Below, piece by piece: positions 7,441 through 47,928 of a DNA stretch of 47,928 bases. Each line of letters starts with the position of its first letter. Positions within the stretch are counted from its first letter, which is position 1. The translations under genes were made by a program, and so were the position numbers. The DNA comes from Acidobacteriota bacterium. GTDB taxonomy: Bacteria; Acidobacteriota; Aminicenantia; S016-38. The stretch is taken from positions 1 through 47,928 of the forward strand of contig WFSJ01000010.1 of NCBI GenBank assembly GCA_015486055.1, in the 5' to 3' direction. The notes beneath the pieces were generated by a model. That model did not search any database and was not told the DNA's origin. It worked only from the letters and a program-made list of their open reading frames with translations.

Positions 7441-7743
7441 ATGATAGGGAAAAATTCTGTTGTCGTGGTTTATCTTGAATCCCCAAAGGAGAAATATTTC
7501 GGTCTTCTTCTTGAGCTTCACAATTCTGGTATCATCCTCAGGGGGCTTAACCTCGAATCTTTTCAAACCTGGATGGAAGAGGTAAACTCCGGTAAAAAGG
7601 GGACCGCAATCTCCACATTCTTTTTCCCCTGGAGGAGGGTCGTAAAGATGATTCTTGATGAAGAAACAGATGGGGTTGAATCACTCACACAGAGATTTAA
7701 GAGAAGAACCGGGAAGGGAATTTTTGAGATCCTTCTTCCCTAA
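7441..7743 (+). CDS. Small conserved-looking protein of unknown function, possible Sm-like fold
   Basis: A 100-aa soluble protein I do not recognise. The frame is open upstream to 7291, but that part lies inside the Memo gene in another frame; the ATG at 7441, 5 nt after the Memo stop, is the natural start. The pattern is a strand (SVVVVYLES), a bent strand pair (EKYFGLLLELHNSGIILRG), a variable helix-like loop, then a strand with FFPWRRVVKMILDE. This resembles the strand order of Hfq/LSm domains, where a nucleic-acid-binding five-stranded sheet is built. That is a fold guess only; no Hfq signature is present. Tight spacing places it in the operon with Memo and the HAD phosphatase. Confidence 0.55.
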   Translation: MIGKNSVVVVYLESPKEKYFGLLLELHNSGIILRGLNLESFQTWMEEVNSGKKGTAISTFFFPWRRVVKMILDEETDGVESLTQRFKRRTGKGIFEILLP

Positions 7744-8317
7744 AGGAGCAATTTTTGACCTTGACGGAACCCTTTTTATCTCCCCTTACAATTGGGCTGA
7801 GATAAAAAGAAAGCTCGGAGTCAGGGGAAAATTAATCCTCGATCATTTATACTCCCTTCCTGAACCTGAAAAAGGCAAAATGTTTGAGCTCCTGGACAGG
7901 TTAGAGGAGGAAGCGGTTAAAAAGGGAGTTCCTGCTCCCGGAGCTGTTGAGGTCCTTAAAGAGCTAAGGAAGAAAGGATTAAAGCTCGGAGTTTTAACAA
8001 ACAATTCTGCCCGACTCGCAAATAAGGTGATAACGAAGCTCGGCTTTACTTTTGATTCAGTTATAACAAGAGACAGTGGAGTTTACAAACCCTATCCTGA
8101 GGCGATAGAGAAAATACTTTTCGCACTTTCCCTGCAAAGTAAGGACTGCTTATACATAGGTGATAATTGGTTGGACCTTGAGACAGTAAAGCCCTTCAAT
8201 TTCAAGATGGTTTTAATAGTGAGCAGAGATGAAGAGCTGAGGAAAAAATACAGAGAAAAGGCTGTTTATCTTTCCTCCCTCCAGGAAATATTAGATATAT
8301 TAAATGGTAAAATCTAA
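7724..8317 (+). CDS. HAD-superfamily phosphatase (phosphoglycolate phosphatase-like)
   Basis: A subfamily IA haloacid dehalogenase-like hydrolase with all four motifs: I in FDLDGT (nucleophile and acid/base Asp), II in LTNNS (Thr), III the Lys in YKPYP, and IV in IGDNWLDLE. A helical cap lies between motifs I and II. The frame extends upstream to an ATG at 7655, but that stretch overlaps the preceding gene heavily and has no HAD homology. I prefer the TTG at 7724, preceded by a GGGAAGGGAA stretch, giving about 197 aa and a 20-nt overlap. Substrate cannot be read; these enzymes dephosphorylate small metabolites. Confidence 0.8.
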   Translation: MRSFFPKGAIFDLDGTLFISPYNWAEIKRKLGVRGKLILDHLYSLPEPEKGKMFELLDRLEEEAVKKGVPAPGAVEVLKELRKKGLKLGVLTNNSARLANKVITKLGFTFDSVITRDSGVYKPYPEAIEKILFALSLQSKDCLYIGDNWLDLETVKPFNFKMVLIVSRDEELRKKYREKAVYLSSLQEILDILNGKI

Positions 8318-8333
8318 ACTGAGAGGTGAAAAA

Positions 8334-8849
8334 ATGAAGAAAATTGTAGCTTTAATCTTTCCAATTTTGATCCTTCTTTCAGCATGCTCCCAGGGGCCAT
8401 CCCCTGATGAAGTAAAGAAATGGCTCGAGATAGTTGATATTAAAACCCAGTGGGTTCAGAAATATGGACCACAGGTCAGGCCATGGGAAGTAGTTTACGT
8501 GCCTTCAATAAGGTTCGTACTGAAGAATAACGGGAAAAAACCTATAAGAATTCTATATTTCAATGCTGAATTCAAGTTTAAGGATGAGGAAAAGAGTCTT
8601 GGGTATGATTACAGAGCATTTCCACAGAAGAAACCCATAAAACCAGGAGAGAAAAGCAGAGAAGTATTTCTCCGTTGCCCTTATGGATTCAGGGCAAGCT
8701 CAAAGGAAAGCTTTAAGAACAATCCCTATTGGAAGCAAGCAGAAGTAAGATTATTGGCCGGAATCCCCGGGGGCAAGCTCGTTGATATGGGCACTTTCCC
8801 AATAAAGAACGTCTTACAGGGAGAGGAAGGTGAAAAAGGACAGAGGTAG
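8334..8849 (+). CDS. Predicted lipoprotein, first of a tandem paralogous pair
   Basis: A 171-aa exported lipoprotein: a short signal peptide ends in a canonical lipobox LSAC, with the modified cysteine at residue 18. The ATG at 8334 with GAGAGGTG upstream is preferred over an in-frame ATG at 8304, which would put charged residues before the signal. The mature part has the pattern PWEVVYVPSIRFVLKNNGKKPI, then NAEFKF, KPIKPGEKS and NPYWKQAEVRL, ending GTFPIKN. The protein encoded next shares this plan throughout, so they are duplicates. The fold looks all-beta, like small immunoglobulin-type domains. I know no function for the family. Confidence 0.75.
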   Translation: MKKIVALIFPILILLSACSQGPSPDEVKKWLEIVDIKTQWVQKYGPQVRPWEVVYVPSIRFVLKNNGKKPIRILYFNAEFKFKDEEKSLGYDYRAFPQKKPIKPGEKSREVFLRCPYGFRASSKESFKNNPYWKQAEVRLLAGIPGGKLVDMGTFPIKNVLQGEEGEKGQR

Positions 8850-9354
8850 TCTTTACTTCCTGTTGTTTGCCTTAGCTTTTTCCTTTCTCCTGACCCTTGC
8901 TATTTCAATCTTTGAAACCCCTGCCAAGGATATTGCATCATCTATAAAGATTCAGAATTTCAGCTCAATATGGGTTCCTTCTTCTCCGCCGGCAAAATCC
9001 ATGATAAAACCATGGGAAGTATTTGTAGCCCCTTTAATCTCTTTCAGAGTGAAAAATACAGGGAAAAAAGCTATAAACTACATAGCCTTTAACGCCGTTT
9101 TCCTAAGGAAGAACACAAGAATGAAACTTGGGACCTCCTATATATTGGCGATAAGAAAGCCGTTGAGGCCAGGGGAAGTGTCCAGTGAAATAAGGATGGT
9201 TTCAGATGGAGGATATGCGGGAAGCTCCATAGAATCTCTCAAGGATAATCCATTCTGGGAACCTGTTGAATGTAAACTCTACCTTGCAAAAAGCAATAAA
9301 TTCATCCTACTCGGAACCTTCGACATAAAGAATGAGATAAGGGAGAAAAATTGA
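8830..9354 (+). CDS. Membrane-anchored paralogue of the preceding lipoprotein
   Basis: A 174-aa protein starting at a GTG (8830), inside the end of the preceding gene (20-nt overlap), behind AGGAAGG. It has one N-terminal hydrophobic segment (about residues 7-29) and no lipobox cysteine, so it is either anchored in the inner membrane or released by signal peptidase I. The soluble part repeats the lipoprotein's landmarks: KPWEVFVAPLISFRVKNTGKKAI, the NAVF strand, KPLRPGEVS, DNPFWEPVECKLY and GTFDIKN. The two probably act as a pair on different membranes or in different states, which is an inference. Function is unknown. Confidence 0.72.
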   Translation: MKKDRGSLYFLLFALAFSFLLTLAISIFETPAKDIASSIKIQNFSSIWVPSSPPAKSMIKPWEVFVAPLISFRVKNTGKKAINYIAFNAVFLRKNTRMKLGTSYILAIRKPLRPGEVSSEIRMVSDGGYAGSSIESLKDNPFWEPVECKLYLAKSNKFILLGTFDIKNEIREKN

Positions 9355-9399
9355 CTCTTTTTCTTTTACTCCTTAACATAATTGGATTGGAGAATGAAG

Positions 9400-11859
9400 A
9401 TGAAGGAATATGATTTCACCCCCATAGAAAAAAAGTGGCAGGAAAAATGGGAAAAAGAGAATGTTTTCAGAGCAAAGGACGGGGAAGGGAAGAAATACTA
9501 TGTCCTTGAAATGTTTCCTTACCCATCTGGGAAGCTCCACATGGGCCATGTAAGGAACTATTCCATTGGTGATGTCATTGCAAGGTTTAAGTGGAAAAGG
9601 GGATACAATGTTCTTCATCCAATTGGATGGGATGGCCTCGGACTTCCAGCGGAAAATGCTGCGATCAACCACAAGGTGGAACCGAAAAAATGGACTTATG
9701 AGAATATAAAACGCATGGGCTCCCAGCTCAAATCCCTTGGCCTTACCTATGACTGGAAAAGGGAAATTGCAACCTGTGATCCTGAATATTATCGCTGGAA
9801 TCAGTGGTTCTTCCTGAAAATGTATCAGCTTGGCCTCGCTTACAGGAAAGAGGAATGGGTAAACTGGTGCCCTAAATGCAAAACAGTTCTTGCCAATGAA
9901 CAAGCAAAGGATGGAAAATGCTGGAGATGTGGAACCGAGGTTGAACAGAGAAAGCTGAACCAGTGGTTCTTGAAAATAGGGGATTATGCGGAGGAACTCC
10001 TCGAAGGTCATAAAAAACTTGAGGGTAAATGGCCAGAAAAGGTTCTTACGATGCAGAAAAATTGGATAGGAAGAAGTGAGGGAGCAGAGATAGATTTTAA
10101 GGTCCAGGGGATTGAGAAGAGTATAAGAATTTTTACCACAAGACTTGATACAATCTACGGTGTCACATATCTCGTCCTTTCTCCTGAACATCCTGTATTA
10201 GAACAAATCCTCGAAGGAAAATTAAACAAGGAAGAAATTCTAAAGTGGTGCAACGAAAGGATAAAGAAGAAAAAATTTTTAAAGGAAGAAGTAGAGAAAG
10301 AGGGTATTTTTACAGGTGCCTATGCCATAAATCCATACAACGAAGAAAGAATTCCCATATGGATAGCAAATTATGTTCTTATGGAATACGGGACAGGAGC
10401 TGTGATGGCTGTTCCCGCCCATGACCAGAGGGATTTTGAGTTCGCAAAAAAATACAGCCTCCCAATAAAAGTTGTAATAACCCCAGAGGAAGGGAAACTT
10501 GATCTTCCCCTTGAAAAGGCATACGAGGAAAAAGGTCTCCTTATAAATTCTGCCAGTTTCACAGGCCTAAGGAGCAATGAGGCAATAAAAAGGATGATAA
10601 CTTTTGCCGAAGCACAACAATTTGGTCATAGGGCTGTAAATTACAGGATAAAGGATTGGGGAATTTCAAGGGAACGATATTGGGGAACTCCGATCCCTAT
10701 TGTTTATTGCGAAAAATGCGGGATTGTTCCTGTCCCTGAAAATCAACTGCCTATAAGACTTCCGGAAGATGTTAAATTTACAGGGGAAGGAAATCCACTC
10801 GATACTTCAAAGAAATTTGTTGAGACGGTCTGCCCAAAGTGTGGAGGTCCTGCAAAAAGAGAAACAGACACGATGGATACATTCTTTGATTCCTCTTGGT
10901 ATTTCTTCAGATATACGGATCCAAAAAATGATGAAAAACCATTTGAAAGAGAAAAAGCAGAATTCTGGTCACCCCCTGATATATATATAGGAGGGATAGA
11001 ACATGCAATTCTTCACCTTATATATGCAAGATTCTTCACAAAGTTCCTAAGGGACATTGGTCTAATAGGATTTTCTGAGCCCTTTCCAAAACTCTTAACT
11101 CAAGGAATGGTAATAAAAGAAGGAAAGAAAATGAGCAAATCTCTTGGAAATGTTGTTGAACCTGACCAGATAATTAAAAAATACGGTGCAGATGCTGTAA
11201 GGCTTTTCATCCTTTTCGCATCCCCGCCTGAAAGGGACCTTGATTGGTCAGACACAGGAATAGAGGGCGCTTACAGGTTCCTTAAGAAGGTGTGGGACCT
11301 TTTCCAGAGGAATATGGATATTCTAAAGCATGATTCGAAGCCCGACCTCTCAGAAGAAACCCTTTCACTTAGAACCCTTACCCACAGGACGATAAAAAAA
11401 GTAACTGAAGAGATAGAGGACAGAATGCACTTTAACACTGCAATAGCAGCACTTATGGAATTCTACAATGGAATATCTGAAAAGGAGAAAGAGCTGAGGA
11501 AAATAGAATCAGGAAAAGCTGCCTTAAAGGAAGCCCTTCTCTCAATGCTCCATCTTCTCTCACCGTTTGTTCCCCATATCACAGAAGAAATATGGTCCAA
11601 AGTTGGGGGAAAAGGATTTATATCCAAGGCCCCCTGGCCAAAATATGAGGAAAAATTAATAGAGAAAGAGAGCTTTACCATTGTAGTTCAGGTAAATGGT
11701 AAAGTCAGGGACAGGCTAAATGTCTTAAAGGGCGAGGATGAAGAGGCGATAAAGGAAAAAGCACTTTCCTCAGAAAGAGTAAAAAAATATATAAAGGAAA
11801 AGAAAATAGTGAAATTTATATACATTCCTGGCAAAATAATGAGTTTCTATGTAAAATGA
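9400..11859 (+). CDS. leuS: Leucyl-tRNA synthetase
   Basis: A class Ia synthetase that charges tRNA-Leu. From the ATG at 9400 the protein is 819 aa, normal for bacterial LeuRS. It shows the HIGH-type motif in PSGKLHMGHVRN (HMGH at 47-50), a CPKC...CWRC zinc module, the CP1 editing domain with a T-rich loop (TTRLDTIYGVTYL) and AVPAHDQRD, a second Cys module (CEKCG, CPKCGG), and KMSKS at 577-581, followed by the anticodon-binding helical domain and a C-terminal VQVNGKVRDR segment. In-frame TTG (9382) and ATG (9394) lie upstream, but GGAG at 9389-9392 is best spaced for 9400. Its stop overlaps the lptE start. Confidence 0.96.
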   Translation: MKEYDFTPIEKKWQEKWEKENVFRAKDGEGKKYYVLEMFPYPSGKLHMGHVRNYSIGDVIARFKWKRGYNVLHPIGWDGLGLPAENAAINHKVEPKKWTYENIKRMGSQLKSLGLTYDWKREIATCDPEYYRWNQWFFLKMYQLGLAYRKEEWVNWCPKCKTVLANEQAKDGKCWRCGTEVEQRKLNQWFLKIGDYAEELLEGHKKLEGKWPEKVLTMQKNWIGRSEGAEIDFKVQGIEKSIRIFTTRLDTIYGVTYLVLSPEHPVLEQILEGKLNKEEILKWCNERIKKKKFLKEEVEKEGIFTGAYAINPYNEERIPIWIANYVLMEYGTGAVMAVPAHDQRDFEFAKKYSLPIKVVITPEEGKLDLPLEKAYEEKGLLINSASFTGLRSNEAIKRMITFAEAQQFGHRAVNYRIKDWGISRERYWGTPIPIVYCEKCGIVPVPENQLPIRLPEDVKFTGEGNPLDTSKKFVETVCPKCGGPAKRETDTMDTFFDSSWYFFRYTDPKNDEKPFEREKAEFWSPPDIYIGGIEHAILHLIYARFFTKFLRDIGLIGFSEPFPKLLTQGMVIKEGKKMSKSLGNVVEPDQIIKKYGADAVRLFILFASPPERDLDWSDTGIEGAYRFLKKVWDLFQRNMDILKHDSKPDLSEETLSLRTLTHRTIKKVTEEIEDRMHFNTAIAALMEFYNGISEKEKELRKIESGKAALKEALLSMLHLLSPFVPHITEEIWSKVGGKGFISKAPWPKYEEKLIEKESFTIVVQVNGKVRDRLNVLKGEDEEAIKEKALSSERVKKYIKEKKIVKFIYIPGKIMSFYVK

Positions 11860-12362
11860 AGAGATTAACATTTTTGGTATTCCTCCTCCTCCCATTTTGT
11901 GGATACCGCCTCGCAGGCACAGGTTCAACTCTTCCCTCATATATAAAAAAAGTATATATTCCTCCTTTCAAAAACAACACTACAAGGGCAGAGGTCGAAA
12001 CATTCATGACCTCTGCTGTAAGGGATGAAATAGCAAGAAGAGGAAAGAAAGTGGTGGACAATATAGAAGATGCAGATGCAGAGCTTTTGGGTAGTATAGA
12101 TAAATTTTATGTTTTCCCCGTGGGAATAACTACCGGGGGAGAATCGAGGAGATTCTCGGTCTCAGTAACAGGAAAGTTTGTTTTAAAGGACATCAAAACA
12201 AACAAGGTGCTTTTCTCAAGCTCGTCTTACACTTTCAGGGACGAATACGAAGCCCAAGGAGCAGGAGCGACAAATTTTCTTTCTCTCCAATCAGAAACAA
12301 TTGAAAAAATAGCGAAAAACTTCGCAAAGTCTATTGTGAGCACGATCCTTGAAGGCTTTTAA
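11856..12362 (+). CDS. lptE: LptE-type LPS-assembly lipoprotein
   Basis: A 168-aa outer-membrane lipoprotein that, in known systems, plugs the LptD barrel and helps place lipopolysaccharide at the cell surface. It has a signal peptide ending CGYRL (cysteine at 15), the typical LptE opening. The segments VYIPPFKNNT, a helix with RDEIARRG, DAELLGSI and the strand RFSVSVTGKFVLKD also match the family. The residue before the cysteine is Phe, unusual for a lipobox. Gene order leuS-lptE-holA is common in Gram-negative bacteria and supports the call. The ATGA overlap with leuS couples translation. Confidence 0.85.
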   Translation: MKRLTFLVFLLLPFCGYRLAGTGSTLPSYIKKVYIPPFKNNTTRAEVETFMTSAVRDEIARRGKKVVDNIEDADAELLGSIDKFYVFPVGITTGGESRRFSVSVTGKFVLKDIKTNKVLFSSSSYTFRDEYEAQGAGATNFLSLQSETIEKIAKNFAKSIVSTILEGF

Positions 12363-13143
12363 ATCTCTTTATCTTTACGGAAAGGACAGCCTGAGCAGGT
12401 CAAGGAGATTTGAGGATTTAGTAAATAAAGGAAGGAAGTTTTATCTCTTTGAGAACTCCTGGGAGGAAATACTTGAGGAAGTAGAATATCCCTCTCTTTT
12501 CTCAGGTCCTCTTCCCGGGGTAAGAATACTGAATTCCAAAGAAGAAAGGCTTTCAAAGAAAAACAGAAAAACATTGGAACAAGCATTAAAAAGAGGAATC
12601 GTTATAATGTCTGAACACGAGGGAAAGAGTGAACTAAAAAATTTCCTAAAGAGTGCTTCCTGCCAAATGGAATATTACAGACTTCCATATGAGAGGGAAA
12701 GGGCAAATATGGTAAGGGAGGAGATGAAAAACTCGGGAAAGACAATAGATGAAGATGCCCTTCTCCTCTTTATAAAACTTGTGGGTGATGATACCCTAAA
12801 TTTGTGGAGAGAGATTGAAAAGCTGAAATACTTCCCCGTTTCAAGAATAACCACTAAGGTGATAAGAAGATTGGCTGTTCCAATGAGAGAATATCCAGTG
12901 TGGGAGCTTGAGATAGCAATAGCCAACAGGAATGTAATTAAGGCAGGAGAAGTTCTTGAATCCCTGAAAGTTAAGGGAGAACAACCTGCTATGGTTGTTG
13001 GAAGCCTGAACTACATAATCTCAAAGATCTGCAGAAGGAACCTCATAAAGGAAATTTTTGACCTGGACTGGAAGATAAAAATGGGATATTCCCCATGGGA
13101 AACTCTTCATTTTTTCCTTATAAAATTGGCGCAGGTTTGTTAA
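12349..13143 (+). CDS. holA: DNA polymerase III delta subunit
   Basis: The clamp-loader delta subunit, which opens the sliding clamp. The protein is 264 aa, shorter than the roughly 340 aa of many HolA proteins. Recognisable parts are the N-terminal YLYGKDSL strand-loop, which lacks a Walker A as expected for delta, a middle region with MSEHEG, and the C-terminal helical collar with LEIAIANRNVIKAGEVLESL and MVVGSL. The start is a TTG at 12349, 14 nt inside lptE. Its order after leuS and lptE matches the classical arrangement. The stop overlaps the stop of the convergent kinase-helicase gene by 4 nt, leaving no room for a terminator. Confidence 0.82.
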   Translation: MKAFKSLYLYGKDSLSRSRRFEDLVNKGRKFYLFENSWEEILEEVEYPSLFSGPLPGVRILNSKEERLSKKNRKTLEQALKRGIVIMSEHEGKSELKNFLKSASCQMEYYRLPYERERANMVREEMKNSGKTIDEDALLLFIKLVGDDTLNLWREIEKLKYFPVSRITTKVIRRLAVPMREYPVWELEIAIANRNVIKAGEVLESLKVKGEQPAMVVGSLNYIISKICRRNLIKEIFDLDWKIKMGYSPWETLHFFLIKLAQVC

Positions 13144-15758
13144 ATTCCAAGGGCCTCTCTTACAAATCTGGAGATTTCTACACTGGTCCTTTTCTCCGTC
13201 TTTGGGAAAATTATGTATAACTTCTCCGTGGCTCTTGTCATAGCCACATAGAAGAGGCGACGTTCCTCCTCCATCCTCTTCCTTGTCATATAGGTTGAAA
13301 AAGCAGGAAAAGCCCCTTCATATGCATCCACTATAAAAACAACAGGAAATTCAAGCCCCTTTGATGAATGGGCAGATATGAGCTTAACCCCCTCTTCACT
13401 TTTAATGAAACCCTTTGAAAAAAGAAGGTCTATGTAAGAAAGAAAAGATTTTATATCCTTTTTCCTGCTCCTTTCGTCAAAATCAATGGCAAGGTCCATA
13501 AGCTCTCCTATGATTTCGCTTTTTACAAAAAATGAGCGGTTAGGGACACTCTTAAGAAGCCCTGTGTATTCAACCCCTATTTTCAATGCTATTGAAGATT
13601 TAAGGGAAGATGCCCTTTTTATAAGCGAGGAAAGAAATAAAGCTCTTTCTCTTACCACTTTGTTTGGGTGTCTCTTGAGAAGTTCAATATAATTTCTCTT
13701 TCCCTTGAGTTCTTCCCTGCTAATTAAATGGTCTCCAAGATTCACAAAGAAAATAAAAGGTAATTTGGTAGGTCTTGAAAGAAGCTTGAGAAAATTTATC
13801 AACACCTCTATTTCCCTTTTCCTCATAAAGTTCTTATTGAACATCACGGAAAATGGTATGGAGTTTTGCTTGAGCACAGAATAATAATTCCTCAGAAGAT
13901 AGTTATATCTTGCTATAATTGCGAACTCATTGAAGCTTCTCCCTCTTGCAGCCCCTGAGGCTATTTTCGAAAGAACGAATTCAGCTTCCTCATTCCTTGT
14001 CGCCAGTCCTTCAATCTGAACTTTTCCACCTTTTTCTTCGCTCCACATAACTTTCTCGAGCCTGTCTCTGTTTCTTGAAATCAGATTAAGCGCTGGGGCA
14101 ATTATCTCCTCGCCGAGCCTGAAACTTCTTGTAAGGTAATAAATTCTTGAGTTTTCCTTAAATACTTTCTTGAAAGTTCTTACAAGTTCTGGTTTTCCTC
14201 CTCTCCATTGATATATTGATTGGTCGTCATCCCCTGTTGCAAATAGCTTCCCACTCCTACCAAGGAGAAGTTTTATTATTTCAAATTGAACTTTGTTAAG
14301 GTCCTGAAATTCATCAACTATTATGTCAGTAAAAAGACGATTATAATCTTCCCTTACAAGGGAATTCTCCTTGAGAAGCTTATATGTCAGGTGAATTACA
14401 TCATCATAATCCATATAGCCATTTTGCCTCTTCCATTCCTGATATGCGCGCATAATATCAATTAGGGCTTTCTTCTTTTGCTCCCCTATTTCCATTTTCT
14501 CAGGGGGAATAAGGCTTGATTTTGAAAACGATATGAGCCTTAAAAACTCAGAGGATGGATAATTGATCTTCTTATTCCTCAGTATAACATCTATTGTTTT
14601 CTGGGCAATCCCTGAGGGTATCACTGAAAAGCCCTGTGAGTATCCTATAAAATGGGAACTTGATTCAAGAATTTTCGTGGATATCTGATGAAATGTTCCC
14701 AACCAGATGTGGCTTACATCCTCCCTCAGATACCTCGAAATCCTCTCCTCAAGGTCTTCCTTTCCCTTGTTTGTAAACGTTGTTATGAGAATTCCTTCAG
14801 GGTCCACCCCATTGTCTATAAGATAAATTAATCTTCCGATAAGGGACTGGCTTTTCCCTGTGCCAGGCCCACCAATAACTAATGTATATTTAAATGGTGA
14901 GGAAACTGCTTCCTTTTGCTCCTCACTCAGGTTGGACCTCTTCTTTTTTCCCTTTCCTTTGAGGGTGATTATGCTCTGGCCAGGACTTTCCTTTATAAAA
15001 TCGGAGAAAAATTCTGATGCCGAGCCATATCTCTTCCTGAAATCAGACGCCGTTGCCCTTAAAATAGCCTCCTTCTCGCTCTCGGGTATATAAGGGGGAA
15101 TATCCCTGAGTCTTATACCTTTTTTTACATTCCTCATGGTCTCCTCAATACTGTCCGCGAAGAATGGATTTAGCCCTGTTAAAAGTTCATAAGCTACAAC
15201 TCCCATGGAAAAAATATCGCTCTCCTTATAATATTTTCCCCTCCAAGCCTCAGGGGCCATATAAGGAGGTGTGCCTGCAACAGACCTTGTCATTTCTCCT
15301 TCAAGAAAAAAAGCAAGGCCGAAATCGGTTATCTTGAGCTTATTTCCCTCAACCAATATGTTCTCTGGCTTCAGATCCCTGTGGAGAATCATCCTTGAAT
15401 GAGCATAGTCCACTGCACTGCAAATTTGTTTAAGAAAGGAAGAGACAACCGCTATATTGAGAGGGGCCTTTTCTTTTATTATTCTCCTTAAGCTCGGCCC
15501 ATTTATATACTCAAGCACTATCCCTGTCCTTCCCTGGTGCTTCTCTACAGTGAAAAACCTCACTATATTGGGATGGAGAAGCTCTGATAGAAGTTTTACC
15601 TCTTCTATTAGATTAGGAAGGTTAGCCTCCCCTCCCCTTGCAATTTTAATGGCGAACTCCTTTCCTATAAGGCTATCCTCTGCTAAGTAAACATCGGCGA
15701 ATCTCCCTCCTCCTAACCATTCCTTTATAAGAAACCTCCCAAACTTTTGGGAAATCAT
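13140..15758 (-). CDS. Ser/Thr protein kinase fused to a UvrD/PcrA-type SF1 helicase
   Basis: One unbroken 872-aa frame with two complete enzymes. Residues 6-255 are a Hanks-type kinase: glycine loop GGGRFADV (16-23), catalytic Lys in AIK (K38), HRDLKPEN (126-133, catalytic D128), DFG (D145) and APE (168-170). A short basic linker (KGKGKKKR) follows. From about 277 comes an SF1A helicase: Q motif LSEEQKEAV, Walker A GGPGTGKS (296-303), LGTFHQI, Walker B VDEFQDL (491-497), GDDDQSIYQWRG (509-520), LTRSFR, ISAHSSKGLEF (about 794-804) and VAMTRAT (838-844). All catalytic residues of both halves are present. The protein is shorter than canonical UvrD helicases, so accessory parts are trimmed. It overlaps the upstream DUF6569 gene by 4 nt. 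Confidence 0.9.
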   Translation of the reverse strand: MISQKFGRFLIKEWLGGGRFADVYLAEDSLIGKEFAIKIARGGEANLPNLIEEVKLLSELLHPNIVRFFTVEKHQGRTGIVLEYINGPSLRRIIKEKAPLNIAVVSSFLKQICSAVDYAHSRMILHRDLKPENILVEGNKLKITDFGLAFFLEGEMTRSVAGTPPYMAPEAWRGKYYKESDIFSMGVVAYELLTGLNPFFADSIEETMRNVKKGIRLRDIPPYIPESEKEAILRATASDFRKRYGSASEFFSDFIKESPGQSIITLKGKGKKKRSNLSEEQKEAVSSPFKYTLVIGGPGTGKSQSLIGRLIYLIDNGVDPEGILITTFTNKGKEDLEERISRYLREDVSHIWLGTFHQISTKILESSSHFIGYSQGFSVIPSGIAQKTIDVILRNKKINYPSSEFLRLISFSKSSLIPPEKMEIGEQKKKALIDIMRAYQEWKRQNGYMDYDDVIHLTYKLLKENSLVREDYNRLFTDIIVDEFQDLNKVQFEIIKLLLGRSGKLFATGDDDQSIYQWRGGKPELVRTFKKVFKENSRIYYLTRSFRLGEEIIAPALNLISRNRDRLEKVMWSEEKGGKVQIEGLATRNEEAEFVLSKIASGAARGRSFNEFAIIARYNYLLRNYYSVLKQNSIPFSVMFNKNFMRKREIEVLINFLKLLSRPTKLPFIFFVNLGDHLISREELKGKRNYIELLKRHPNKVVRERALFLSSLIKRASSLKSSIALKIGVEYTGLLKSVPNRSFFVKSEIIGELMDLAIDFDERSRKKDIKSFLSYIDLLFSKGFIKSEEGVKLISAHSSKGLEFPVVFIVDAYEGAFPAFSTYMTRKRMEEERRLFYVAMTRATEKLYIIFPKTEKRTSVEISRFVREALGI

Positions 15759-42683: not shown

Positions 42684-42827
42684 GTTTAAATTCTCGGAAG
42701 TTCTTTGGTGGTTCAAAAGACAAGAAGACTTAACACTTTTAAAGTAAGAAATAATTTAAGAAATTATTGACAAATTAATTTTTTAGTATTAGAATATAAT
42801 TAGATAAAAAATTTAGGAGGCGTAATA
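42684..42827. other. Intergenic region before the DsrE-TusA-Hdr operon
   Basis: A 144-nt, very AT-rich stretch without a reading frame. It holds a promoter at 42767-42795 and the AGGAGG ribosome-binding site of the DsrE-like gene. No hairpin terminator for nth was recognised. Confidence 0.6.
42767..42795 (+). promoter_or_regulatory. Promoter of the DsrE-TusA-MvhD-HdrA operon
   Basis: TTGACA (42767-42772), a 17-nt spacer and TAGAAT (42790-42795), five of six consensus bases. Transcription would start about 42802, ahead of AGGAGG (42814-42819). Confidence 0.68.
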
Positions 42828-43247
42828 ATGGCTATGGTTAAAAAAATGGCAATTGTACTTTTCTCAGGAAGTCTGGACAAGCTTACAGGAATGTCAGTTC
42901 TTGTATCAGGGGCAGCCGCTCAGGACATGGAGGTTGACATTTTCCTCCTGCTCTGGGGAGCTTATGCCTTCAGGAAAGATATTGCGGAAAAGAACACCAA
43001 CTTTGCAGAATTTCCGGAGCTGAAACCGCAGGTTCATGAAGCCCTCGTAAAAATGAAGGCACCATCCTGGCTTAATATGCTCAAAGAAGCAAGAGAATTG
43101 AGCAAAGTTAGAATCCATCTTTGCTCTCTTGCCTTTCAGATATGGGGCGGGAAGAAAGAGGAGTTTCTTGACATAGTGGATGACATAATCGGTGCGGTCG
43201 AATTCATATCTATGGCAGAGGAAGCAGACATTCCTTTATTTATCTAA
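42828..43247 (+). CDS. DsrE/DsrF-like sulfur-carrier family protein
   Basis: A 139-aa protein of the DsrE fold. It begins MAIVLFSGSLDKLTGMSVLVSGAA in sections, then DIFLLLWGAYAF, and has a single conserved-position Cys in IHLCSLAFQIWGG (C99). DsrE-type proteins pass persulfide sulfur to TusA-type carriers. The next gene is TusA-like, which supports such a pair. Start at the first ATG, 8 nt after AGGAGG; it is first gene of the operon. Confidence 0.85.
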   Translation: MAMVKKMAIVLFSGSLDKLTGMSVLVSGAAAQDMEVDIFLLLWGAYAFRKDIAEKNTNFAEFPELKPQVHEALVKMKAPSWLNMLKEARELSKVRIHLCSLAFQIWGGKKEEFLDIVDDIIGAVEFISMAEEADIPLFI

Positions 43248-43258
43248 GAAGGCTTAAA

Positions 43259-43513
43259 ATGAAAGATGAAGAACTTAAAAACTTGAAGGCAGATAAGGTT
43301 GTTGATGCAAGGGGGACATCCTGCCCCGGTCCTCTCCTTGCAGCAAAAAGGTCAATTGCAGAAATCCCGGTTGGAGGAACAATGGTAGTCCTTTCCTCTG
43401 ACCCAGGAACCAACAGGGATATTCCACTGTGGGCAAAGAAGATGGGATATGAATATCTTGGCACGGTAGAGGAGCCAGGCTACTGGAGAATCTTCGTAAA
43501 GAAGACCAAGTAA
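43259..43513 (+). CDS. TusA/SirA-like sulfur-carrier protein
   Basis: An 84-aa protein with the family signature VDARGTSCPGPLL; C22 of the CPGP motif would hold the persulfide. GGTMVVLSSDPGTNRDIPLWAKKMGYE read in sections is the typical rest of the domain. Together with the DsrE-like protein it forms a sulfur relay, here tied to Hdr-type proteins. It is 11 nt after the first gene. Confidence 0.9.
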   Translation: MKDEELKNLKADKVVDARGTSCPGPLLAAKRSIAEIPVGGTMVVLSSDPGTNRDIPLWAKKMGYEYLGTVEEPGYWRIFVKKTK

Positions 43514-43525
43514 AGAAAAACAAAA

Positions 43526-43957
43526 ATGGAAGGAGAAATAAAGGACGCTGGGGATTTTCGTCCCAAAATCCTCGTCTTTTCCACAAACAACATTTCTGAT
43601 CCTGGGATAGACTTAGCCGGAAGCTCCCATATGCATTACTCACCCACCGTGGTAGTTATTCCCCTTCCCTGCTCCAGCGGAATCAAACCTAAATGGATAC
43701 TGTATGCTATAGAAAAGGGGTTTGATGGCGTTTTTATCGCAGCAGACGGAACTGACTGCGCATATCTTCAGGATTGCTCGGATAGGACGGCGAGGATAAC
43801 CACAGAAGCCCAGAATCTACTCAAAAAGAATGGCTACGACCCTCAAAGACTCAAAATGGCAGCAATATGTTCTGTATGCGCTGAGCCATTTGTCAATTAT
43901 ATGAAGGATTTCTACAAAACCCTGAGAAAGCTGGGGCCAGTAAAAAAGGAAGGATAA
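43526..43957 (+). CDS. MvhD/FlpD-like iron-sulfur subunit with altered cysteines
   Basis: A 143-aa protein of the methyl-viologen-reducing hydrogenase delta family, which links an electron donor to HdrA. Matching parts are ILVFSTNNISDPGIDLAGSS, VVIPLPCSSGIKPKWILYAIEKGFDGVFIA in sections, GTDCAYLQDC and a C-terminal helix. From memory, the family normally has an FCCxxCS-type Cys group at the N-terminus; here it reads FSTNNIS with none. The cysteines present are C49, C78, C84, C115 and C118, the last two in an ICSVC not usual in the family. The cluster may be rebuilt or absent. It sits 2 nt before the HdrA fusion. Confidence 0.82.
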   Translation: MEGEIKDAGDFRPKILVFSTNNISDPGIDLAGSSHMHYSPTVVVIPLPCSSGIKPKWILYAIEKGFDGVFIAADGTDCAYLQDCSDRTARITTEAQNLLKKNGYDPQRLKMAAICSVCAEPFVNYMKDFYKTLRKLGPVKKEG

Positions 43958-43959
43958 AA

Positions 43960-46665
43960 ATGGACTACGATGCTCTTGTAATAGGAGGTGGGATAGCAGG
44001 GATGGAAGCCTCTTTAAATCTGGGCGACATGGGCTTCAAGGTCCTTCTTGTTGAAAAGGAACCATCTATAGGGGGTAAGATGATCCTCCTGAGCAAGGTT
44101 TTTCCCACCCTTGACTGTGCAAGTTGCATTTCAACCCCAAAGATGGCAGCCGTAGCTCACCATCCAAATATAACCCTTATGACTTCCAGTGAAGTGGAAA
44201 AAATAAAGAGAAATGGGGAAGGTTTCAAAGCAAAAATTCGTAGAAAACCCGTCTTTGTTGATCCTGCAAAATGCACAGGTTGCCAGGAATGTGAATTTGC
44301 ATGCACTGTGGCTGTTCCGGACGAATTTAATTTTGGTCTTGTTGCAAGAAGGGCGGCATACACCCCATTCCCACAGGCTGTTCCGAAGAAAGCTGTAATA
44401 GAAAGGGCAGGAACTTCTCCCTGCAGCTTTACATGCCCAACAGGAATAAAGGCACACGGTTATGTTTCTCTTGCAAGGGCTGGTAAATATGAGGAAGCTT
44501 TTAATCTTATAATGGAAGATGCCCCCCTTGTGGGAACCCTTGGAAGGGCATGTTATGCTCCGTGTGAAAGGGAGTGCACAAGAGGTTTATTAGAAGGTCC
44601 TGTTCCTATAAGAAGGATAAAAAGATTCATTGCTGATTATTATTACAGTCACCATCCTGAACCAGAATACAGGCCACCTGCTGAGCTCTTTGAAAAAAGT
44701 GTAGCAATTATTGGCTCCGGCCCTTCAGGACTTACAGCGGCCTATTTCCTTGCAAAGAAGGGATATAGAGTGAAAATATTTGAGAAAGAACCTAAGGCTG
44801 GTGGGATGCTCAGGACTGCTATTCCTTCCTTCAGATTGCCAAAAGACATTGTTGAGAGGGACATAAAGAATATAACTGCCCTTGGAGTTGAGATAGAGAC
44901 CGGGAAGGAGGCAAAAAACTTGAAGGGCATCAAGGAAAAAGGTTTTGATGCAATATTCATAGCAGCAGGCGCAGGGATACCAAGGAAGATGAGAATTGAG
45001 GGTGAAGGACTCGATGGGGTTGTAAACAGTATGGACTTTCTCAGGGCGGTGAACTTCGGCGATAAAATTGATCTCAGCGGTAAAAAAGTCATGGTGGTGG
45101 GCGGAGGAAATGTAGCAATTGACTCTGCAAGAGTTGCAAGGAGACTTGGCGCCGCGAAGGTAATAATTCAGTACAGAAGGAGCAGGGCAGAAATGCCTGC
45201 CTTTGACTGGGAAGTTAAAGAAGCCGAGGATGAGGATGTTGAATTCCAATATCTCAGGGCTCCTATTAAGTTTATAGGCGAAGATGGAAAGCTTAAAGAG
45301 GTTGAAAGTATAAAAATGAAACTTGGGCAATCCGACGAGAGCGGAAGGAGGAGGCCAATACCCGTGAAAGGTTCTGAACACAGAATAAAGGCTGATTTTG
45401 TGGTTTTAGCTATCGGGCTTGTCCCATCAACTTTTCCCTTCAAAGAAGAACTTGAACTCAACAAAAACGGAACTGTGAAGGTTAACGAGAAAACCCTCCA
45501 GAGCTCCCTCCCTTATGTATTCGCAGGGGGAGATGTCGTAACAGGTCCTTCTATGATAGTCACCGCCATGGGGCAGGGGAAAAGAGCTGCATTCTATATA
45601 GACCTTTACCTTAAGGGAGAGCAGCTCAGTAAGCATGAATTCGAACCAACCCTCCCTGTGGTATCCAAGGAAGAGGTCCTTGCAAGACAGATAACCCACA
45701 CAAAGAAAGCTTCTATTATACACAAGGAATTACTCCCTCAGGAAAGAATCAAGAACTTCATGGAAGTTGAACTGCCAATGAGCGAGGAAGAAGTAAGATA
45801 CAGTGCTTCCCGTTGTCTTGACTGCGGAATTTGTTCTGAATGTCACGAATGCATAAAGGCATGCCCTGCAGATGCTATAGATTTTTCCCTGAGAGAGGAA
45901 GAAAAGGAGGTTGAAGTTGGCTCTGTCATTGTATCCACAGGGTTTAAGTTGTTCCCTGCTGAACAAAAGCCCAAATACGGCTTTGGAAAATATAAAAATG
46001 TTATAAATTCAATGCAGATGGACAGAATTCTTGCCCCAACAAGGCCATACAATACAGTCCTAAGGCCTTCTGATGGGAAGATTCCCGATAATATAGCTTA
46101 TGTGCTCTGCACAGGTTCCAGGGACAGGACGGTTGGAAACCCAATATGTTCCCAGATTTGCTGCATGTATTCTATAAAGCAGGCACAGCTTCTAATGGGT
46201 GCCCTTCCCCTTGCGGATATAACAATTTACTATATGGACATAAGGGCTTTTGGAAAAGGATTTGAGGAGTTTTACCAGCAGGCAAAGGCAATGGGGACAA
46301 ATTTCATCAAAGGAAGAGTAGCAAAAATAGAGGAAAAGGAAAACGAAAATCTTATACTTTATTATGAGGATATAGAAAACGGTGGCGTGAAAAAGACCGC
46401 AGAGCACGATATCGTTGTTCTTTCTGTAGGAATCCTTCCCACTCCAGAGATCGCGAAGATATTTGAAGAAGAGCTTCTAATTGATGAATTCTTTTATATA
46501 AAACAGGTGGAAGAGGATGTAGAGCCGGGTAAGACAAGCATAGAGGGAGTGTTCGTTGCAGGAACTGCCTCCTCCCCTATGGATATTCCTGATTCAGTTC
46601 TTTATGGAGGTGCAGCAGCAACCCAGGCAGCAGCCTATATAGAGAAAAAAAGGAGAGGGAAATGA
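43960..46665 (+). CDS. HdrA fused to a GltD/NfnB-like FAD oxidoreductase
   Basis: A 901-aa flavoprotein. Residues 1-150 are the HdrA head: FAD motif GGGIAGMEASL, LDCASC, and a 4Fe-4S site C105-X2-C108-X2-C111-X3-C115. Residues 155-550 are a glutamate-synthase small-subunit/NfnB-like unit with Cys C155, C159, C198, C202, C206, FAD site GSGPSGLTAAYFLA, NAD(P) site VVGGGNVAIDSARVA and the tail FAGGDVVTGPSMIVTAMGQGK read in sections. A second ferredoxin-like set (C619, C622, C625, C628, C631, C635) precedes the HdrA tail, with CTGSRD, CSQICCMYSIKQA and FVAGTA. The fusion implies NAD(P)H-linked electron bifurcation or confurcation. HdrB, HdrC and a hydrogenase are not in view. Confidence 0.87.
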   Translation: MDYDALVIGGGIAGMEASLNLGDMGFKVLLVEKEPSIGGKMILLSKVFPTLDCASCISTPKMAAVAHHPNITLMTSSEVEKIKRNGEGFKAKIRRKPVFVDPAKCTGCQECEFACTVAVPDEFNFGLVARRAAYTPFPQAVPKKAVIERAGTSPCSFTCPTGIKAHGYVSLARAGKYEEAFNLIMEDAPLVGTLGRACYAPCERECTRGLLEGPVPIRRIKRFIADYYYSHHPEPEYRPPAELFEKSVAIIGSGPSGLTAAYFLAKKGYRVKIFEKEPKAGGMLRTAIPSFRLPKDIVERDIKNITALGVEIETGKEAKNLKGIKEKGFDAIFIAAGAGIPRKMRIEGEGLDGVVNSMDFLRAVNFGDKIDLSGKKVMVVGGGNVAIDSARVARRLGAAKVIIQYRRSRAEMPAFDWEVKEAEDEDVEFQYLRAPIKFIGEDGKLKEVESIKMKLGQSDESGRRRPIPVKGSEHRIKADFVVLAIGLVPSTFPFKEELELNKNGTVKVNEKTLQSSLPYVFAGGDVVTGPSMIVTAMGQGKRAAFYIDLYLKGEQLSKHEFEPTLPVVSKEEVLARQITHTKKASIIHKELLPQERIKNFMEVELPMSEEEVRYSASRCLDCGICSECHECIKACPADAIDFSLREEEKEVEVGSVIVSTGFKLFPAEQKPKYGFGKYKNVINSMQMDRILAPTRPYNTVLRPSDGKIPDNIAYVLCTGSRDRTVGNPICSQICCMYSIKQAQLLMGALPLADITIYYMDIRAFGKGFEEFYQQAKAMGTNFIKGRVAKIEEKENENLILYYEDIENGGVKKTAEHDIVVLSVGILPTPEIAKIFEEELLIDEFFYIKQVEEDVEPGKTSIEGVFVAGTASSPMDIPDSVLYGGAAATQAAAYIEKKRRGK

Positions 46666-47928
46666 GCAAGCGGAGAATCGGAGTTTATATATGCCATTGT
46701 GGGGGAAACATCTCTGACTATGTTGATGTGGAAAAGGTAAGGAAGGATATAGAAAACGAGGATGGGGTAGTGGTTGCAAAGACAACCATGTTTGCCTGCT
46801 CAGACGCCGCTCAGCAGGAGATAATAGACGACATAAAGGATAAAAATCTTGACGGACTTGTAGTTGCTTCCTGTTCCCCCAAACTTCATCTTTTTACTTT
46901 CAGGGGGGTTGCTAAAAGAGCAGGGTTAAATCCTTATCAATATGTGCAGGTAAACATCAGGGAGCAGGACTCATGGGCACATACAGATGACCCTGAAGGT
47001 GCAACAGAAAAAGCCATAAAGCTTGTAAGGGCAGGCATATCCAAGGCAAGGTTTACAAAACCTTTGGAGCCCATAAGGATAGATACTGTAAATAGTGCAC
47101 TTGTTATCGGAGCAGGAATAGCCGGGCTAAGAGCGGCAATTTCCCTATCAGATTTAGGGATTTCTGTGTTTGTAATAGAGAGAGAAGCAGAGCCCGGGGG
47201 ATGGACGAGAAAATTCAAGGAGATGTATCCACATGGAAAAAGCGGAATGGAAATCATGGAACACCTTATGGATGAAATAAGAAAAAGGGAAAACATAACT
47301 TTATTTACAGAAGCTGAAGCAGTAGAAAAATCGGGAAGCGTTGGGGACTTTAATGTGAAAATAAAGGCAAAGGGGGAGGAGATAAGCCTCAATGTAGGAG
47401 CAATAATAGTTGCTACTGGATTTGAAACCTATAAACCAAGGGAAGGAGAGTATGGATATGGAATGGATGGAGTTGTTACACTTCCCGAATTCAAGGAAAT
47501 GATTGAGGCCGCAAATGGTAAGCTGACATATAAAGGCAAAGAAATGAAAACCTTAGCATATATTTACTGCGTGGGTTCCCGTCAGGGGCCCGAGGTTGAA
47601 AATCCCAACACATATTGTTCCCGCTACTGCTGTAATGCTACAATGCATTCAGCAATCCTTACCTCCAAAACAAACCCAACCATCCACCAGTTTCACTTCT
47701 ACAGGGACATAAGGACCTATGGAAAATACGAAACTATGTATGAAGAGGCGTCTAAAAAAGGTTCTGTATTCATAAAGTTCAATGAGAACGAGCCCCCACA
47801 GATTTCAAAATCAAATGGCAGCTTAATTGTGAAGGTAAAAGACCTGTTGACAGAAGGGGAAGAAATAGAACTGAAAACAGACCTTGTTATTCTTGTCACG
47901 GGAATGGTTCCAAGGGAAAATTCAAGCC
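46662..47928 (+). CDS. Second HdrA-like protein, cut by the window end
   Basis: A partial CDS of at least 422 codons, starting at an ATG that overlaps the HdrA fusion stop (ATGA). It has the HdrA N-terminal domain (CHCGGN, C11 and C13; FACSD, C46; ASCSPKLH, C71), the FAD motif VIGAGIAGLRAAIS, VIEREAEPGG, CVGSRQGP and NTYCSRYCCNATMHSA. At about 100-107 it reads REQDSWAH, where from memory the family usually has a Cys (REHCSW). No ferredoxin domain appears before the FAD site. Its continuation is outside the window. Confidence 0.88.
   Translation, partial: MSKRRIGVYICHCGGNISDYVDVEKVRKDIENEDGVVVAKTTMFACSDAAQQEIIDDIKDKNLDGLVVASCSPKLHLFTFRGVAKRAGLNPYQYVQVNIREQDSWAHTDDPEGATEKAIKLVRAGISKARFTKPLEPIRIDTVNSALVIGAGIAGLRAAISLSDLGISVFVIEREAEPGGWTRKFKEMYPHGKSGMEIMEHLMDEIRKRENITLFTEAEAVEKSGSVGDFNVKIKAKGEEISLNVGAIIVATGFETYKPREGEYGYGMDGVVTLPEFKEMIEAANGKLTYKGKEMKTLAYIYCVGSRQGPEVENPNTYCSRYCCNATMHSAILTSKTNPTIHQFHFYRDIRTYGKYETMYEEASKKGSVFIKFNENEPPQISKSNGSLIVKVKDLLTEGEEIELKTDLVILVTGMVPRENSS

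Follow-up and report, generated by a model that had tools for sequence, protein, structure and literature searches.

A conserved operon joining the sulfur carriers TusA and DsrE to a Qmo-like flavoprotein core, a putative NAD(P)H-linked persulfide oxidoreductase

What do sulfur carriers do in an operon of electron-transfer flavoproteins? The question is raised by the end of a 47,928-nucleotide (nt) contig from an Acidobacteriota bacterium (WFSJ01000010.1, assembly GCA_015486055.1; the whole of it is called the window here), in which five genes on the + strand form one transcription unit in the order dsrE-tusA-mvhD-hdrA/gltD-hdrA2. The unit begins with dsrE (42828..43247), which encodes a DsrE/DsrE2-type sulfur carrier of 139 amino acids (aa; Pfam PF13686, 62 bits, and PF02635, 25.7 bits), and continues with tusA (43259..43513), encoding an 84-aa TusA sulfur carrier (PF01206, 78 bits against a cut-off of 28.6), and an mvhD-like gene (43526..43957), whose 143-aa product is a variant of MvhD/FlpD (PF02662, 106 bits; PDB 5odc_D, E=1e-17). 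The fourth gene, hdrA/gltD (43960..46665), encodes a 901-aa protein in which the HdrA core is interrupted at approximately aa 150-555 by a GltD/NfnB-like NAD(P)H module, and the fifth, hdrA2 (46662..47928), encodes a second HdrA with an N-terminal iron-sulfur (Fe-S) domain. These identities come from Pfam and NCBIfam (DrsE_2/DsrE, TusA, FlpD, HdrA interrupted by Fer4_20 and Pyr_redox_2, and the N-terminal part of HdrA, respectively). An earlier first-pass annotation of the letters had placed the five genes under one promoter with gaps of 12 nt or less, and every open reading frame was found in place, with 11, 12, 2 and -4 nt between consecutive genes. The sigma-70-type promoter (42767..42795, + strand; TTGACA-17-TAGAAT, 11/12 matches, identified by consensus match only) ends 32 nt before the start of dsrE, whose ATG is preceded by the ribosome-binding site AGGAGG. 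The contig stops at 47928, so hdrA2, which encodes 565-595 aa in its full-length homologues, is truncated by the assembly.

The five-gene arrangement is not due to chance. We scanned 84,980 GTDB species genomes by HdrA/GltD alignment, using two HdrA motifs (GGKMILLS and KVFPTLDC) as bait; because the bait was confined to HdrA, loci were not chosen for having TusA or DsrE. The scan yielded at least 591 stretches, and the counts that follow rest on the best 80 loci, re-annotated with profiles trained on members of those same loci, such that they show presence and not independent discovery: 78 loci encode TusA and 78 MvhD, 79 encode HdrA2, 74 a winged-helix protein and 65 DsrE or DsrE2. Two loci lack TusA and MvhD; both start at the HdrA/GltD gene, where they are cut by a contig edge. 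TusA, MvhD, HdrA/GltD and HdrA2 were encoded in this order, adjacent and on the same strand, in all 77 loci that could be assessed (about ten phyla or more), and the sulfur carriers and the Hdr-type complex that had been grouped on first reading are thus a real and deeply conserved unit. The bacterial hosts are Acidobacteria/Aminicenantes, Armatimonadetes, Bacillota (including DSM isolates of Desulfofundulus and Desulfotruncus), Chloroflexi, Bacteroidetes, Actinomycetota, Zixibacteria, LCP-89, several Proteobacteria, Kiritimatiellales and Lentisphaerae, and the archaeal hosts are Thermoplasmata; most are metagenome-assembled genomes, so some of these taxon names may be wrong. The terminal module varies: ~41 loci end with a QmoC-like subunit and 29 with HdrC plus an HdrB-like CCG protein; the Desulfofundulus locus, for example, reads TusA-MvhD-HdrA/GltD-HdrA2-winged helix-HdrC-HdrB-DsrE2.

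Near relatives of the window, all Candidatus Aminicenantes metagenome-assembled genomes (JALSNJ010000018.1, JAMOUJ010000005.1 and JAMOUL010000191.1), show that the operon exceeds the five genes visible here. Within the family, the order is rex-dsrE-tusA-mvhD-hdrA/gltD-hdrA2 (565-570 aa)-winged helix (77 aa)-QmoC-like (354-359 aa)-dsrE2, and other families of the same class have the identical order, with dsrE or dsrE2. In all six family relatives (G001 to G006), some of which have the later operon genes on another contig, rex ends 11-15 nt 5′ of dsrE, a position that fits control by the NAD(H) pool. The window differs in this respect: nth lies directly upstream of dsrE, at a spacing of 144 nt (42684-42827), and rex, which stands between the two in the same-genus genome G001, is missing from that site, the genome retaining a single rex elsewhere. 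A Rex operator upstream of the operon was considered and set aside as too weak to claim, since its 11/14 matches in the window were equalled by 7 of 300 shuffled sequences and the g2 relatives gave 10/14. An apparent loss of hdrA2 in the f5/g6 genomes proved to be an artefact of open-reading-frame picking, as tblastn finds the gene intact. The genes after hdrA2 in the relatives answer part of what had been expected downstream: they are redox genes, either QmoC-like or HdrC plus HdrB, and none of the Aminicenantes operons has an hdrB, ferredoxin oxidoreductase or hydrogenase gene there. The rex, winged-helix, QmoC-like and dsrE2 genes, and the resemblance to Qmo, go beyond the first description of the locus.

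Both sulfur carriers retain their catalytic cysteine. TusA has a CPGP motif with its catalytic cysteine at Cys22 (codon at 43322), which is kept in 78/78 loci, and in DsrE, a relative of which matches PDB 2qs7, Cys99 (codon at 43122) occupies the sulfur-binding position of the family, where cysteine is invariant in 11/11 aligned DsrE and 59/59 DsrE2 sequences. The operon TusA is the only TusA in each of the eight Aminicenantes genomes examined (G000, which is the window genome, G001, G003-G006, G014 and G032). A profile of operon TusAs scored 138 bits for the operon TusA of a Bacteroidales genome, whereas the other TusAs of the Desulfofundulus, Desulfotruncus and Bacteroidales genomes reached 28-35 bits. 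Searching E. coli genomes with the nucleotide sequence of tusA returned no match.

The MvhD-like protein departs from its hydrogenase-associated namesake. It lacks the N-terminal CNWC of hydrogenase MvhD, having STNNIS there in the window, and its five cysteines (Cys49, 78, 84, 115 and 118), in a pattern conserved in 78/78 loci, include three at positions that hydrogenase MvhD does not use. The GltD module matches NfnA in the PDB with 385 bits, and its NAD(P) motif GxGxxA is present in all 80 aligned sequences, which upholds the NAD(P)H-type module recognised at first. A YRR motif, which in this family is typical of NADPH sites, occurs in about 66 of the 80; the second Arg is replaced by Glu in 13, so the choice of cofactor may vary. 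At the flavin site (numbered E356 and K409 as in 5odc), HdrA/GltD has Lys in place of K409 and an acidic residue (Asp or Glu) in place of E356 in 79/79 sequences (Lys740 and Asp688 in the window), whereas HdrA2 has lost both bifurcation residues, mostly to Lys/Arg and His (Lys278 at the E356 position and His329 at the K409 position in the window). Both residues are also present in the canonical QmoA and QmoB of Desulfofundulus, and retention by itself is therefore no proof of bifurcation.

Is the operon, then, a form of something already known? Its layout is that of QmoABC, which likewise pairs a short HdrA-like flavoprotein with a second that bears an N-terminal domain, and adds to them an MvhD domain and a QmoC-like fusion of HdrC with a cytochrome b, such that HdrA/GltD would correspond to QmoA, and HdrA2 plus MvhD to QmoB. 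The QmoC-like protein of the loci that have one contains two complete [4Fe-4S] motifs (cysteines kept in 45-46 of 46), three invariant histidines (42/42) and a fourth in 35/42, and six hydrophobic segments. Unlike in QmoABC, MvhD has a gene of its own, one HdrA carries an inserted GltD module and TusA/DsrE stand in place of AprBA. In a small tree based on the gene set of two genomes, the QmoA and QmoB proteins of Desulfofundulus and Desulfotruncus formed their own clade (support 0.999); HdrA/GltD made up another clade (1.000), beside HdrA-type proteins, and HdrA2 fell elsewhere. Because HdrA/GltD and HdrA2 lie outside the QmoA/QmoB clade, the operon, judged from these sequences, shares the layout of Qmo but falls outside canonical Qmo. 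Desulfofundulus has both systems at separate loci, its apr locus being apr-qmoA-qmoB-(HdrD-like)-qmoC.

The nearest published groups are type II Qmo and type III HdrA. In type II Qmo, or QmoAB-HdrBC, QmoAB is closer to HdrA, occurs with or without Dsr/Apr and has HdrBC or QmoC as its terminal module (PMC10504309); the paper never names GltD, and TusA appears in it only as a carrier to DsrEFH, outside the unit (PMC10504309). Type III HdrA, from methane-metabolising archaea, has GltD at the inserted ferredoxin domain of HdrA (PMC12054007) and shares with our protein the domain order HdrA-GltD-HdrA. Its nine sequences are archaeal, have a GxGxxG (NAD) motif and are accompanied in Bathyarchaeota by mvhADG (PMC12054007), whereas the operon described here has GxGxxA, no N-terminal HdrA domain, HdrA2 as partner, TusA/DsrE and a broad bacterial spread.

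Membership of canonical Qmo and of sHdr fails, and membership of YTD probably does too. The sHdr system (HdrC1B1A-hyp-C2B2 with TusA, DsrE3A and LbpA) is similar in that tusA, with the CPxP cysteine, and dsrE genes adjoin Hdr genes. The distinction from sHdr that was drawn at first holds, since the subunit set differs, MvhD and GltD are present and the Aminicenantes form is without HdrB; in place of the two HdrB and two HdrC of sHdr, Aminicenantes have only the HdrC part of QmoC, and other phyla one HdrC and one HdrB. No LbpA family stood out in the neighbour clusters, for which no LbpA profile search was made. Two features of HdrABC-MvhADG are likewise absent: the QmoC form has no heterodisulfide-site HdrB with two CCG motifs (in other phyla, the HdrB-like protein has one CCG domain match), and the N-terminal CxxC of hydrogenase-type MvhD is gone with the replacement of CNWC. 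The YTD cluster (YedE-TusA-DsrE-CHP, now DsrEFH type II) also brings TusA and DsrE together in anaerobes (PMC9751629, PMC13293266), but without Hdr/Qmo genes, whereas the operon here has an Hdr/MvhD core; no YedE was noticed in the lists of open reading frames or neighbour clusters, for which no YedE profile was run. A published description of this gene set was not found in the open literature searched; most subscription papers lie outside that literature, and the novelty of the operon is therefore provisional.

Our preferred reading, which we consider evenly poised between right and wrong, is that the operon encodes an NAD(P)H-linked persulfide oxidoreductase complex of QmoABC-like build, probably working mainly reductively in the Aminicenantes, in which neither dsrA nor aprA was found over cut-off in the eight genomes. 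In such a flavo-iron-sulfur complex, sulfur carriers would replace the APS reductase that is the partner of Qmo, and an NAD(P)H module would be inserted. HdrA/GltD, in the position of QmoA, would exchange hydride with NAD(P)H, and HdrA2 and MvhD, jointly in the position of QmoB, would wire it to the QmoC-like membrane subunit or, in other lineages, to HdrC and HdrB. TusA would carry sulfane sulfur, work with DsrE/DsrE2 and dock at the core, most plausibly on the variant MvhD. The Aminicenantes form has TusA and DsrE and no HdrB, which rules out an HdrB cluster encoded in the operon as its sulfur site; the variant MvhD, whose gene is always beside tusA, is a candidate for that site. In Aminicenantes, NAD(P)H would reduce the TusA-bound persulfide to sulfide and the carrier would be recycled; the presence of rex in the operon suggests NAD(P)H disposal and hence points to this direction. 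The membrane subunit may serve as a second electron outlet or inlet, with flavin bifurcation possible at the flavin of HdrA/GltD. At some loci outside the Aminicenantes, the neighbours include rhodanese-fused disulfide reductases, DsrC, additional DsrE, class-V aminotransferases and flavoproteins that look SQR-like by eye, each type in 4 to 12 of the 80 loci (raw counts), a suggestive pattern.

Several points weigh against this reading. The QmoC-like protein of the relatives scores 209-221 bits with the NCBIfam qmoC model, below the curated cut-off of 300. Neither MqnA/D nor MenD was found over cut-off in the eight Aminicenantes genomes despite the QmoC-like subunit; a MenA-like prenyltransferase appeared below cut-off only, and a check of menaquinone synthesis through the MqnA/D, MenD and UbiA-type families gave no clear pathway in these genomes. 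The 3′ part of hdrA2 and qmoC were searched for elsewhere in the window genome (1.86 Mb, 98.9% complete) and were not found. Finally, the same parts could run as sulfane-sulfur oxidation.

The alternative that survives best overlaps with the preferred reading and adds ferredoxin as a required partner: a bifurcating complex of the FlxABCD-HdrABC type, in which oxidation of NAD(P)H would drive reduction of ferredoxin together with that of a persulfide or disulfide. The Lys and acidic residue kept at the flavin site of HdrA/GltD agree with it, and GltD-inserted archaeal HdrA has been proposed to act in bifurcation with NADH (PMC12054007). We nevertheless regard it as rather unlikely, as both residues are lost in HdrA2 and equally kept in canonical QmoA/B, the block has no ferredoxin gene, and GltD sits at the ferredoxin domain, where it may block access of ferredoxin (PMC12054007). 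The exchange of electrons between a persulfide or heterodisulfide and NAD(P)H or ferredoxin that the first-pass annotation had proposed is retained in part: the NAD(P) motif agrees with the NAD(P)H side, the HdrB-type heterodisulfide site is absent in Aminicenantes, and for ferredoxin and bifurcation the evidence is the retained Lys.

Sulfur oxidation, by an sHdr-like enzyme that would convert TusA-bound sulfane sulfur to sulfite and pass electrons to NAD(P)+ and the membrane, is improbable in our view. An association of TusA and DsrE with the sHdr complex is known from sulfur oxidisers (PMC6067878), and some of the loci have HdrC plus HdrB, but the Aminicenantes version has no HdrB gene and the sHdr set with two of each subunit was not seen; rex in the operon and the lack of dsr and apr favour reduction over oxidation. 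That the substrate is not sulfur at all, the operon encoding an NAD(P)H:quinone or NAD(P)H:ferredoxin complex of Qmo/Hdr type with which TusA and DsrE, as suppliers of sulfur for Fe-S clusters, tRNA or signalling, are only co-regulated, would fit a cluster-rich complex and a TusA that, as the sole one of its genome, may serve other pathways too, but is quite unlikely given that the linkage is strict in all assessable loci, including those of genomes with other TusAs, and that further HdrA loci in these genomes lack TusA (C46 in the window genome and the hydrogenase-linked HdrA-GltD locus of G004).

If the preferred reading is correct, a single complex would link the NAD(P)H pool with persulfide bound to a protein. 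Sulfur metabolism is usually inferred from dsr, apr, sox, sHdr or psr genes, and the block would mark sulfane-sulfur turnover in lineages without dsr and apr. More speculatively, in a generalisation that we offer as a possibility and would not yet favour, the operon would encode a widespread and undescribed NADPH-linked, possibly flavin-bifurcating persulfide reductase (or oxidase) with TusA as its protein-bound substrate, an exchangeable outlet (QmoC-like or HdrC plus HdrB) and a new type of MvhD as the docking site, and many prokaryotes without dsr genes would thereby have a hidden sulfur respiration. Cultured hosts are available in Desulfofundulus thermosubterraneus, Desulfofundulus thermobenzoicus and Desulfotruncus alcoholivorax.

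The winged-helix protein, which would be a DNA-binding-type fold within a redox complex, is a separate gene of ~80 aa outside Bacteroidales. In Bacteroidales (L129, L131 and others; e.g. L129:12706-14901), an ArsR-like winged helix is fused to the C-terminus of HdrA2, the sole clear fusion observed; apparent TusA-MvhD or HdrA/GltD-HdrA2 fusions in GC-rich loci were rejected as open-frame artefacts, the domains found by hidden Markov models lying in separate frames. Regulatory genes also adjoin some loci. A CsoR-family repressor is encoded divergently from the block on the - strand, ~1.3 kb upstream of hdrA/gltD, in relatives of Desulfotomaculum (L110, L111, L112 and L121), and regulators of Crp/Fnr type are divergent from it in many Bacteroidales loci.

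Related modules occur in other contexts. At two loci without TusA, L103 (G076:C744, 4970-10631) and L104 (G115:C160, 927-6558), a QmoC-like gene adjoins a giant HdrA/GltD (~1500 aa), which is another Qmo-like arrangement. Locus L081 (G004:C5:296000-315900, 7450-15510) reads HdrC-HdrB-HdrA with inserted GltD (1123 aa)-MvhD-[NiFe]-hydrogenase small and large subunits-maturation protease and is a hydrogenase-linked, GltD-inserted (type III) HdrA in bacteria. The window genome itself contains a second Hdr supercluster, L028 (G000:C46, 4874-14823, - strand), composed of HdrC-HdrB-HdrA-FrdB-like-FrdA-like-two-domain HdrA (894 aa)-MvhD-FrhB-like and located close to a gene resembling histidine ammonia-lyase; a possible role is to couple a pair of fumarate reductase/succinate dehydrogenase-like proteins to HdrABC.
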